A DNA stretch of 64,000 nucleotides from Scytonematopsis contorta HA4267-MV1 (GTDB lineage Bacteria; Cyanobacteriota; Cyanobacteriia; Cyanobacteriales; Nostocaceae). Positions within the stretch are counted from its first letter, which is position 1. Every line of letters begins with the position of its first letter. The stretch lies in NCBI GenBank assembly GCA_019359035.1, contig JAHHIC010000066.1:186001-250000 (forward strand), given 5' to 3'. Positions 6,118 through 48,652 of this stretch are shown here, in pieces. The position numbers and the translations under genes are program-made. Under the pieces are notes generated by a model. The model had not been told where the DNA came from. It did no database searches and saw only the letters and a list, made by a program, of their open reading frames with translations.

Positions 6118-6328
6118 TTGTGGGATGGGCTTCCAGCCCGTCCGTTGCAGAAGGGCAGGCTTCCAGCCCGTCCGTTGCAGAAGGGCAGGCTTCCAGCCCG
6201 TCCGTTGCAGAAGGGCAGGCTTCCAGCCCGTCCGTTGCAGAAGGGCAGGCTTCCAGCCCGTCCACAGAACAAGGGCGGTTCCCAGCCCCTCTGTTGAACG
6301 AGGGCGGGCAAGGATGCCCACCCCACAA
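6118..6328. repeat. Inverted-end element containing six 30-bp tandem repeats
   Basis: The left end TTGTGGGATGGGC and the right end GCCCACCCCACAA are near-perfect inverted repeats. Between them are six consecutive 30-bp units (6121-6300). Three are identical (AAGGGCAGGCTTCCAGCCCG + TCCGTTGCAG), and the outer units are variants. Each unit contains a small GGGC...GCCC palindrome. All frames stay open, which produced several false ORFs. The same ends enclose a completely different array at 37777-37993. Confidence 0.85.
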
Positions 6329-8142: not shown

Positions 8143-8496
8143 AAGCCACACAAGCTACACAAGCTACATAAGCCACACGAGCTACACAAGCCACACGAGC
8201 CACACAAGTCAAACAAGTCACACGAGGCACACAAGTCACACGAGGCACACAAGTCACACAAGTCACACAAGTCACACAAGTCACACAAGTCACACGAGCT
8301 ACACAAGTTACACAAGCCACACGAGCTAAACAAGTCACACAAGTCACACAAGTCACACAAGTCACACAAGTCACACAAGCCACACAAGTCACACAAGCCA
8401 CACAAGCCACACAAGTCATACAAGTCACACAAGCCACACAAGCCACACAAGCCACACAAGTCACACAAGTCACACAAGTCACACAAGTCACACAAG
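8143..8496. repeat. Large 9-bp tandem array (CACACAAGY type)
   Basis: About 39 consecutive 9-bp units of the form TCACACAAG, with CC/CT/TT variants and occasional CACACGAG. They run without spacers from just after ackA to the tip of the inverted-repeat element at 8497. The 9-bp period keeps all frames open (KSHKPH-type false peptides). It is an ordinary tandem array, not CRISPR. Confidence 0.9.
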
Positions 8497-8661
8497 CCAG
8501 GGAATAAATTCCCTGTCTAAAAGCTCAAGTCCTCTGAAGAGGACTATAAAAAAGGAGATTTTTGGGAATATTCTAAATTTTGTAAAAATATCTTTTTTTG
8601 GTGTATTTTTTAGTCCTCTTCCAGAGGACTTGAGCTTTTAGACAGGGAATTTATTCCCTGG
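8497..8661. mobile_element. 165-bp inverted-repeat (MITE-like) element
   Basis: The two ends are inverted repeats of ~50 bp. The left arm reads CCAGGGAATAAATTCCCTG, then TCTAAAAGCTCAAG, then AGTCCTCTGAAGAGGACT; the right arm is its reverse complement with one or two changes. Each arm is itself two short palindromes. The centre (~60 bp) is AT-rich and has no coding capacity. Copies of the same arm at 46394 and 48440 make it a dispersed family. No direct target-site duplication is obvious because both flanks are tandem arrays. Confidence 0.75.
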
Positions 8662-8721
8662 CTATTGTCTGGCTATTGTCTGGCTATTGTCTGGCTATTG
8701 TCTGGCTATTGTCTGGCTCGC
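8658..8721. repeat. 11-bp tandem array at the right tip of the element
   Basis: Five to six copies of GGCTATTGTCT begin exactly at the GG of the right CCCTGG tip, then decay into GGCTCGCTTG. Confidence 0.8.
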
Positions 8722-37776: not shown

Positions 37777-37993
37777 TTGTGGGATGGGCTTCTAGCCCGT
37801 CCATAAGCAAGGAACTTAAGCAAAGAACTAGCAAGGGCAAGGGCAAGGGCAAGGGTAAGGGCAAGGGCAAGGGCAAGGGCAAGGGCAAGGGCAAGGGCAA
37901 GGGCAAGGGCAAGGGCAAGGGCAAGGGCAAGGGCAAGGGCAAGGGCAAGGGCAAGGGCAAGGGCAAGGGCGGGCAAGGATGCCCACCCCACAA
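37777..37993. repeat. Inverted-end element containing a (GGGCAA)n array
   Basis: It has the same ends as the 6118-6328 element (TTGTGGGATGGGC at left, GCCCACCCCACAA at right, and the same adjacent GGGCTTCTAGCCCGTCC and GGGCGGGCAAGGAT). The interior is about 23 copies of the hexamer GGGCAA (one GGGTAA) at ~37834-37972. The purely repetitive reading frames (GKGKGK, ALALAL) are artefacts. Confidence 0.88.
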
Positions 37994-41996: not shown

Positions 41997-42225
41997 GATA
42001 TTACTTCTCCCTCATTTTCCTAATCCCACTCATCCTCACTCATCATCACTCATCCTCACTCATCTTCCTAATCCCCTCATCTTCCTAATCCTCACTCATC
42101 TTCCTAATCCCACTCATCCTCACTCATCATCACTCATCTTCCTAATCCCACTCATTCTCACTCATCATCACTCATCCTCGCTCATCTTCCTAATCCCCTC
42201 ATCTCCCTAATCCTCCTCATCTTAA
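41997..42225. repeat. ACTCATC / TTCCTAATC degenerate tandem array
   Basis: A mosaic of TCCTCACTCATC, ATCACTCATC and TTCCTAATCCC units covers ~230 bp, ending 65 bp before the antitoxin gene stop codon. Confidence 0.75.
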
Positions 42226-46320: not shown

Positions 46321-46397
46321 CAAGCAGATTTGACCAGATTTAGCCAGATTCAGCCAAATTCAGCCAGATTCAGCCAGATTCAGCCAGATTCAGCCAG
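46321..46397. repeat. 10-bp tandem array ending at an element tip
   Basis: About seven copies of CAGCCAGATT (first ones degenerate: GACCAGATTT, AGCCAAATTC) run directly into the CCAGGG tip at 46394. Confidence 0.82.
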
Positions 46398-46443
46398 GGA
46401 ATAAATTCCCTGTCTTAAAGCTAAAGTCCTCTGAAAGAGGACT
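46394..46443. mobile_element. Left inverted-repeat arm of a 2.1-kb composite segment
   Basis: CCAGGGAATAAATTCCCTG, TCTTAAAGCTAAAG, AGTCCTCTGAAAGAGGACT: same family as the arms of the 8497-8661 element. It shares the variant TTAAAGCTAAAG only with the opposite arm at 48440-48488. Confidence 0.75.
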
Positions 46444-46562
46444 GAAAGAGTTTATTTATCAGTATTTATGACAATTAGGATACTACCTTTTAGTTAGTTT
46501 TAGTCATCTGCTAACCCCCACAATAAAAAATCCAGTCAAATAAATTTAGTAATTATAGAAAA

Positions 46563-46856
46563 ATGGAAAAGCCAAGAGTATTTGTTGATTTCCATAATGC
46601 TGACGTTCAAGGTCATTTACGCCTCAACTGTACTGGAACCCTTACGGATTTAGCAAATCAAAAAATACGGTTGCGGTTGCATGACGGTAAAAAATTAACA
46701 CTTTACAGCGAAGATTTAGAAGTAGAGGGAATTGTTAAATACTCTACAGAAGAAAATCTGTGGGTTGCTGTCATTGATTGGGATAAAATTGTCGAAAAAC
46801 AAGCTAATTTATTTCCACAGAGTAGAGAGTTGGAAATTCCTACATCTTCTGGCTAA
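46563..46856 (+). CDS. Small unknown protein inside the composite segment
   Basis: 97 residues with no signal or TM segment: MEKPRVFVDFHNADVQGHLR, LNCTGTLTDLANQKIRLRLH, then DGKKLTLYSEDLEVEG and VKYSTEENLWVAVIDWDKI. The predicted all-beta pattern (alternating hydrophobics, LRLHDGKKLTLYS, VEGIVKYSTEENLWVAVI) suggests a small barrel. No ribosome-binding site is obvious and the function is not recognised. It is the only plus-strand gene between the two inverted arms and is convergent with the Uma2 gene. Confidence 0.55.
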   Translation: MEKPRVFVDFHNADVQGHLRLNCTGTLTDLANQKIRLRLHDGKKLTLYSEDLEVEGIVKYSTEENLWVAVIDWDKIVEKQANLFPQSRELEIPTSSG

Positions 46857-46902
46857 TGAATGCGATGGTTAATTTGAAAATTATCAAGTTGAATTATCTC
46901 CG

Positions 46903-47481
46903 TTATCCCCAAATTTTTTGCATATTAAGTACAAAACCAGGCAAAACATTTTCTCCAGAAATAGTTTGAGGTAACTTTAAAACTTCCACTTCCTGTCCAA
47001 GACGATAAATTTCCACTTCCTGTTTTTTCCTGTTAATCAACCAACCCAAACGACAACCATTTTCCATATACTCTTGCATTTTATTCTGAGTTTTTGTCAA
47101 ACTGTCATTCGGTGACATAATCTCAATCACAAAATCCGGACATAAAGGAATAAATTTTTCTTTTTGTTCTTTACTCAAAGCATCCCAACGAGATTTTTCT
47201 ACCCACGAAACATCTGGAGAGCGGTCAGCACCATTTGGTAAAGTAAATCCAGTTGATGAATCAAAAACTTCACCTAGTTGATTTTGTTCGTTCCATAACC
47301 ATGTTTGACCGTTAATACTAGAATTGCTTTTTCCCGTTTCCCCTCCCGTCGGTGGCATTATAATCAACTCTCCCTGAGCATTACGTTCTAATTTTAAATC
47401 CGGGTTGTCTTCACATAATTGGTAAAACTGCTCTCTGGTCAGTTTAATTAGAGAATTAAGGTTTAATGTAAGCGCTGTCAT
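46903..47481 (-). CDS. Uma2-family (DUF820) putative endonuclease
   Basis: 192 residues of PD-(D/E)XK-like fold, a family greatly expanded in cyanobacteria and of uncertain role. Motifs: FYQLCEDNPDLKLERNAQGE, LIIMPPTGGETG, the acidic strand SPDVSWVEKSRW, FIPLCPDFVIEIMSPNDSLT (catalytic-type E-I-x-S) and MQEYMENGCRLGWLINRKKQ. Complete in length. It lies inside the inverted-repeat-bounded segment. It is not closely similar to the two tandem Uma2 genes at 55-57 kb. Confidence 0.88.
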   Translation of the reverse strand: MTALTLNLNSLIKLTREQFYQLCEDNPDLKLERNAQGELIIMPPTGGETGKSNSSINGQTWLWNEQNQLGEVFDSSTGFTLPNGADRSPDVSWVEKSRWDALSKEQKEKFIPLCPDFVIEIMSPNDSLTKTQNKMQEYMENGCRLGWLINRKKQEVEIYRLGQEVEVLKLPQTISGENVLPGFVLNMQKIWG

Positions 47482-47705
47482 AGGAATATTTCCGATTTTT
47501 TCTTCACTGATTGGGTTATGAACCTATATCCATTTTGTTCCACACCTCAACAAAAGTGAATGACTATCCTTAGTCTCCATAATAAACGCAGCCTTTAAAA
47601 TTATTCACAAAATTTATTAACCACTTGATTTACAGAACCAAGTACTTACATTTATCGAGTGAGTGAACTTAGGTTATCTCAACTCACATTAGTTTTTTAA
47701 CCAGT

Positions 47706-48335
47706 TCAGGAAATCACTAATAGACTAAGGCGTTTTAAAATACTTAAAACATCATACAATTCGTTATCAGGGTTTCGGAGTTCAAAAACTTTAGAAGTAG
47801 CGTATTGTATAGTTTCTCCCTTAACCAGTTTAAGAAATACAAAACTTCCTCCTGTGGTAATCATCCCAAAACTAGGCTTTTCTGGGTAAGGGTTTGCTAG
47901 CATATAAGCTATGATTTGAGCTAGTCCAGCTTCTATAGAAAAAGTCGCTTGTTTGGATTCAATCACCATAACCCAGAATTGTTCTTTTAAGACCAAAGCA
48001 TCCAAACTACCCTTGATGAGAATATCTTCATCAACTGCGGAAATTTCTATAGATTTTTCCGACTTCACATAAAACGCAGATAAATAAAAATCACCAATAA
48101 ATAAAAGTGGGTCTAATACTGACATTTTGACCACATTTTCAAGCATAGGTGGGTATCTTAGTAAATTAAAATATCCAGCTTGAACTTTGTCTAATTGTTG
48201 TTTTTCTAAATCAGTAATATCTGGTAAATTATCTTGCCATTCTCTAAAAAATTGCTTATCCCGAATTAGCCGTAGTCCAAATAAAGTTTCTAATTCTACT
48301 AACGTAATATCCTTCGCTTGGATTGTTTGCACCAT
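47706..48335 (-). CDS. Restriction-endonuclease-like protein (PD-(D/E)XK)
   Basis: 209 residues, often annotated as restriction endonuclease subunit R although it lacks a helicase. The N-terminal half has ITLVELETLFGLRLIRDKQF, TDLEKQQLDKVQAGYFNLLR and YPPMLENVVKMSVLDPLLFI. The nuclease-like core is DEDILIKGSLDALVLKEQFW followed by VMVIESKQATFSIEAGLAQI, i.e. D-x(n)-E-x-K spacing. The pattern matches an orphan type I R-subunit N-terminal domain. It is located near the right arm of the composite segment; substrate and activity are unknown. Confidence 0.72.
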   Translation of the reverse strand: MVQTIQAKDITLVELETLFGLRLIRDKQFFREWQDNLPDITDLEKQQLDKVQAGYFNLLRYPPMLENVVKMSVLDPLLFIGDFYLSAFYVKSEKSIEISAVDEDILIKGSLDALVLKEQFWVMVIESKQATFSIEAGLAQIIAYMLANPYPEKPSFGMITTGGSFVFLKLVKGETIQYATSKVFELRNPDNELYDVLSILKRLSLLVIS

Positions 48336-48439
48336 AATTACTATTAAGCAGCGAATACATGGGTATTATATAATTATTTCTCAACATCTACAGTTCATGC
48401 CAATTTGAAAAAATATTTATTAAATTCATTTACTCCTCC

Positions 48440-48488
48440 AGTCCTCTTTAGAGGACTTTAGCTTTAAGACAGGGAATTTATTCCCTGG
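48440..48488. mobile_element. Right inverted-repeat arm of the composite segment
   Basis: AGTCCTCTTTAGAGGACT, CTTTAGCTTTAAGA and CAGGGAATTTATTCCCTGG form the reverse complement of the arm at 46394, differing at about two positions. Immediately outside the tip are two copies of GGCAAACCTT. Confidence 0.75.
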
Positions 48489-48652
48489 CAAACCTTGGCA
48501 AACCTCTCGTGCTTGTATTGTTCTTACCATAAATCATAGGTAAATTAAAAACACACTATTACGCCTAAATAACTAATTTATTTATGTAGTTAAACTTGAT
48601 ATCTCAAAAATTGTAAGCATAATCTATTATACCTCTTTAAAAAGGTAACAGC

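Follow-up and report, generated by a model that had tools for sequence, protein, structure and literature searches.

A 64,000-nucleotide stretch of DNA from Scytonematopsis contorta HA4267-MV1 (hereafter the window) harbors four palindromic arms whose outer ends, the tips, carry the identical sequence CCAGGGAATAAATTCCCTG and border on short tandem repeats (Table 1). Two of the arms enclose a spacer in a compact element that folds as a single hairpin (-67 kcal/mol versus -15.8 for shuffles), and the other two oppose each other at a distance of 2.1 kb with three ORFs in between. Tips and arrays were found at the positions given in the initial annotation, which had also described a short tandem repeat abutting each tip and a GCC or GGC at each joint. 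All four tips do have such repeats, but the one at 48488 consists of only two 10-bp copies, and besides abutting the tip the periodic stretch also enters it by 3-4 bases (CCA, CCAG, CCAG, and CCA at the four tips in order); in other copies of the element, up to 14 tip bases lie inside the periodic stretch. The GCC/GGC is present as well and is made up of the element's own end plus conserved flank; the final 9-bp unit meets its tip as AAG|CCA.

Table 1 Arms, hairpins, and tandem arrays at the four tips of the window
Feature	Position	Strand	Details
Tandem array	8143..8496	+	9-bp unit AAG(C/T)CACAC, x39.3
REPIN-like element	8497..8661	.	Spacer between two inverted double-hairpin arms
Left arm, tip hairpin H1	8498..8515	+	
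Left arm, inner hairpin H2	8528..8545	+	
Right arm, inner hairpin H2	8612..8630	+	
Right arm, tip hairpin H1	8643..8660	+	
Tandem array	8658..8718	+	11-bp unit CTGGCTATTGT, 5.5 copies; start lies within tip
Tandem array	46334..46397	+	10-bp unit CCAGATTCAG, 6.4 copies; extends 4 bases into tip
Double-hairpin arm	46394..46443	+	H1 46395-46412, H2 46425-46443
Double-hairpin arm, opposed	48440..48488	-	H2 48440-48457, H1 48470-48487
Exact tandem duplication	48486..48505	+	10-bp unit TGGCAAACCT x2 (two copies only), three tip bases included

Tandem repeats are frequent in the window (33 TRF rows), and some arrays have no REPIN tip nearby, i.e., those at 6128-6263 (30-bp x4.5), 37831-37978 (6-bp x25), and 42023-42221 (10/38-bp). 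Opposed arms spaced 0.7-3.4 kb apart, as at 46394-48488 of the window, also occur at C13:21795-23235, C50:36093-39481, and C54:84471-85157; these are either REPINs with cargo or single REPs that are neighbors. A synteny comparison at 8.8 kb of the window with other cyanobacteria was tried, and its intergenic part was dropped because the best relatives (ca. 67% protein identity) are too distant.

The 10.66 Mb source genome contains 105 forward and 105 reverse matches to the tip pattern (at most two mismatches), versus 0 matches in the reversed control, and a second tip version, CCAGTGACTAAAGTCACTG, contributes ca. 100 additional matches. Inverted pairs are common among the tip matches and mostly 140-170 bp long. 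From outside to inside, each arm consists of H1, a linker, and H2. Both hairpins are conserved as structures in a set of 177 distinct arms that were picked by the linker alone, structure not being required: H1 pairs in 1325 of 1416 cells (1157 on average and at most 1175 after shuffling), has 110 cells altered on both sides, and occurs with 12 different perfect stems, and H2 shows 187 cells altered on both sides and 9 different perfect stems. The elements are thus REPIN-like, each composed of two inverted REPs that are double hairpins, with H1 at the tip and H2 inside. They share with REPINs the inverted doublet with short spacing in many copies, the conserved palindrome structure, and a nearby Y1 gene. 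The 5' tetranucleotide GT[AG]G was not found as a rule at the hairpin foot, where AG is conserved on the outside, following A, C, or T (-1 base G at 140/151 tips, -2 base A at 136/151) and GTAG is only occasional; for this reason we name the family REPIN-like and leave it outside the GTAG super-family.

Arms also reside in larger miniature elements: MITE A, with outer ends GAGGGTGTTTATAAATAAAATATTAAGC, carries them as pairs, and MITE B, of 215 bp and with ends GACATCTTGCACC, contains a single arm. No shared direct repeat that would mark a target-site duplication was apparent in the flank listings, and a flank-joining scan recovered no insertion-free site. MITE A devoid of a REPIN was considered as an empty site and rejected, nearly all MITE-A copies read containing REPIN sequence or a remnant of it. 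We also dropped the idea, suggested by a conserved 80-nt sequence at 13 tips, that an RNA-guided nuclease (TnpB) targets the tips, since these 80-nt copies belong to the 215-bp MITE, which has terminal repeats of its own. In one MITE-A copy (L087, G000:C107:7800-9000, at ca. 490-605), only a single hairpin, AAGCCAGTGACTTTAGTCACTGGCTT, remains of the REPIN, as though the core separating the H1 hairpins were lost; it resembles the 'double foot' REPs, for which an origin by such a deletion is proposed (PMC6006769). The REPINs of L089 and L092 have the same broken H1 (CCAGGGAATAAATTAAGAG) in both arms, and therefore the arms seem to change together even when the hairpin is lost.

Arrays were called by one scoring rule (score >=12), set after the data were seen, in a census of those 151 distinct tips of the source genome that lie in the loci read. 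Under this rule, arrays accompany 38 of the 72 tips in ordinary context, 12 of the 66 in MITE A, and none of the 13 in MITE B, compared with 1.7% of 5640 junctions picked at random from these loci. Other perfect hairpins in these loci had arrays in 5 of 106 cases, most of them belonging to unrelated repeats, and inner H2 edges in 1 of 144, i.e., the enrichment is confined to the outer edge of the tips. Further genomes gave arrays at 20 of 92 tips, and in six genomes counted separately they occur at 5-29% of tips versus 0-0.5% of random junctions. The enrichment at tips that the initial annotation expected is therefore upheld; the opposite outcome that it had considered, most other copies being without arrays, is what we see within the two MITEs and not at tips in ordinary context.

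Six Y1 transposase genes were found in the source genome. One of them (L082) has an arm pair on either side within ca. 230 bp, and two of these four tips carry 14-bp arrays. Genes of this type are flanked by arms with diverged stems at seven more loci in five other genomes (G016, G023, G026 with three, G030, and G037), and a search recovered relatives in 128 of 391 genomes of the order. Double-hairpin arms lie near 32 of 38 gene loci and near 0 of 80 control loci (625 kb). The motif Y---Q--HH, described as the mark of subclass 1.2, for which no REP is listed (PMC6006769), was present at 36 of the 38 gene loci and at 0 of 27 other Y1 loci, and together with the HUH motif it assigns the associated protein to TnpA_Y1 subclass 1.2. 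The arms at 32 of 38 loci contradict the reported absence of REPs from this subclass, not its sequence definition. By sequence the L082-type protein is IS200/IS605-like, matching NCBIfam NF033573 above the cut-off, and its nearest solved structure is ISHp608 TnpA, with which it aligns; against the RAYT model NF047646 (class 2 TnpA_REP), the subclass-1.2 proteins score at most 23.7 bits versus a cut-off of 80. The tips of one genome (G286) have arrays, yet no subclass-1.2 gene was found there at E<=1e-15, and these arrays may be older than a gene loss. Another of the six Y1 genes of the source genome (L084, 1459-1779), truncated and class-2-like (RAYT), has a REPIN directly downstream.

Most array units cross the junction, with the tip's own first bases at their start and flank at their end, and they follow the local tip variant (CCTGGGAATTAG... 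in L160, GCGGGGGTAGATCGCGTCATCCG in L275). In MITE A, whose flank other copies reveal, the arrays are built from that flank, e.g., (CCAGACCACAAG)n in L100. Breakpoints were placed in 66 resolvable arrays on CCAG-type tips (ambiguity <=3 nt), in an analysis devised after the data were seen. A break after CCA (CCA|G) is allowed in 43 of these 66, and the flank base at this joint is G in 39 of the 43 against a background of 0.159 (binomial p ~5e-27; such p values are indicative only, as related tips are not independent). In the outermost copy, the base before the joined G is A in 32 of 43. The (CCAG)n cases (19/43, many of them related MITE-A copies) equal a 4-bp segment from the flank's terminal AG to the AG of the tip; when they are set aside, G still occupies 20 of 24 CCA|G joints. 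Read on the opposite strand, the majority joint is C|T, i.e., a flank C comes directly before the T of CCC|TGG. In a minor class, 9-14 tip bases precede the break, which falls within the H1 loop or slightly beyond it and never clearly mid-stem, and some joints of this class have longer homology, e.g., AATAAAT. The window array at 48486 has an A at the joint, outside the majority pattern, and the tip variants CCGGGG and CCTGGG, for which resolvable arrays are few, are without C|T at this position.

TnpA_REP is known to cleave REPs at C|T, leaving a 5' phosphotyrosine and a 3' OH, and its strand transfer requires a 3' C, upstream sequence mattering little (PMC8266576). By analogy, we consider it somewhat probable that the subclass-1.2 transposase cleaves at C|T, that aberrant strand transfer seeds duplications, and that slippage expands them. 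The transposase would hold H1 in single-stranded DNA, where the cut strand exits the element as CCC|TGGC|T, and would cut at the foot-internal C|T or at the terminal GGC|T (putatively 8658|8659 and 8662|8663 in the window). The T end with its 5'-phosphotyrosine could sometimes join the 3'-OH of a flank C a few bases out on another copy of the strand (the sister strand or re-replicated DNA), so that transposition would be left incomplete and everything between the internal C|T and the flank C, i.e., three tip bases plus flank, would be duplicated. As the new copy would carry GGC|T again, the reaction could recur, and tens of copies would be reached by ordinary slippage or unequal exchange; for array growth and unit decay, ordinary slippage probably suffices. 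The part ascribed to the transposase derives from the position of its gene and from this analogy, and the breakpoints fit the recurrent nicking that had been proposed at the outset. Against such a scheme, known REP sites are outside the hairpin and the internal C|T is two base pairs deep in the H1 stem, the arrays of G286 occur in a genome where the search recovered no subclass-1.2 gene, and several arrays do not fit it, namely that at 48486 with its A at the joint and the loop class, which probably stems from hairpin-induced slippage or hairpin cleavage.

The main rival dispenses with the transposase: a polymerase would stall at or in H1 and slip back on 1-2 nt of flank homology, duplicating flank and part of the tip. 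H1 is a stable hairpin, the AG that ends the flank recurs at tip positions 3-4 and so provides the joint with 1-2 nt of homology (G or AG), and the loop class, with its 9-14 tip bases and occasional stretches such as AATAAAT, is well accommodated. Replication slippage alone is nevertheless unlikely in our view, as the other perfect hairpins (5/106) and the H2 inner edge (1/144) are without such arrays, and as a single tip position dominates even though many seeds share just 1-2 nt. We regard as very unlikely that a cruciform is extruded, its H1 loop cut by a hairpin nuclease of the SbcCD type, and flank plus half the hairpin duplicated by end joining or break repair, which would explain why a separate unit class ends within the loop or slightly beyond it and leaves unexplained both the CCA|G majority and the different behavior of H2. 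Cruciform formation, also proposed initially, finds no support as a sufficient cause, other hairpins and H2 having no such effect.

The arrays arose after the elements had inserted. Among 48 element pairs compared, 28 have an array on one or both sides, and the array never continues in direct orientation on the opposite side. Five pairs have identical units on both sides, in inverted orientation only (L019, C30:41675-41823; L048, C38:217055-217218; L095; L098; L114), which suggests that the matching units were copied from one arm to the other. Orthologous tips of sister species differ in copy number: a single CCAGAAT in L327 corresponds to 13 CCAGG(G)AAT units in L181 (flank ca. 81% identical), CCAATAATG occurs once in L178 and twice in L270 (flank 97% identical), and ATCTAAGTAG|CCAGGG in L324 faces ATCTGGGTAG CCAGTAG|CCAGGG in L303 (flank 94% identical), a difference that equals the absence versus presence of a 7-bp junction duplication. 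That the elements instead landed in pre-existing tandem repeats is hardly credible, even in a genome this rich in short tandem repeats and with the small dispersed repeats of Nostoc reportedly lying inside heptamer repeats (Elhai et al. in 2008), given that arrays do not continue directly across the element, matching units are inverted, units contain element sequence, and copy number differs between orthologous tips. The local formation of arrays at tips put forward in the initial annotation is thus borne out, with formation following insertion; the alternative it had named, arrays older than the insertions, is contradicted by the flanks and the sister-species orthologues.

Returning to cleavage and aberrant joining by the transposase, we tentatively postulate, at a likelihood somewhat short of even, that a subclass-1.2 HUH transposase keeps making minisatellites at the ends of its REPIN-like elements by joining the internal C|T to a nearby C, and that the arrays are fossils of abortive transposition. 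REP and REPIN movement is still poorly understood, and there is little evidence of the transposase acting in vivo; the tip arrays have the look of scars left in vivo by site-specific cleavage and rejoining, and they occur near genes of a subclass of transposases believed to be REP-free. If the postulate is true, it would supply an enzyme and a substrate that can be tested together, explain a way in which minisatellites are born in bacteria, and identify a source of rapidly changing intergenic spacers in cyanobacteria, every element end being a local generator of tandem repeats.

REPINs, REPtrons, and tandem REP clusters are already known; new within the literature searched are a family of REPIN-like elements with double hairpins that is linked to TnpA_Y1 subclass 1.2 and the minisatellites seeded at tips with site-specific joints. 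The system was initially taken to be undescribed, which does not hold for elements that are REPIN-like and lie beside a Y1/HUH transposase gene, and the junction arrays themselves are absent from the literature searched. The elements resemble REPINs/BIMEs and REPtrons (TnpA_REP, RAYT; PMC3116915, PMC8266576) as inverted doublets of short palindromes in many intergenic copies, and also in having one Y1/HUH gene between its own REPs and CT next to the hairpin foot. They differ in having two hairpins per REP, no clear 5' GTAG, a subclass-1.2 (IS200-like) instead of a class 2 protein, and tips that bear junction-spanning minisatellites. The protein shares with IS200/IS605 transposases (IS608, ISDra2) the family match and the alignment with ISHp608 TnpA given above, whereas here there is no TnpB, there are no IS-like single left and right ends, and inverted doublets bracket the genes. 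A Porphyromonas gingivalis MITE is likewise a miniature element with a minisatellite, in that case reportedly inside the element (PMC4596501), whereas here the repeat is outside and differs at each tip. Tandem REP/REPIN clusters (PMC3116915, PMC3733652) are likewise amplified locally along with adjoining DNA that varies in length. Their repeated unit is an entire REP or REPIN, and here it is the first 2-14 tip bases plus flank, a complete hairpin being part of the unit only in a few exceptions, e.g., L278, L294, and L343. The first of these (G094:C1, 2282-2852) has, beside a subclass-1.2 gene, seven same-orientation arms spaced 95 bp apart, and its first tip carries a 10-bp CCCGGTTCCG-type array of >200 bp.
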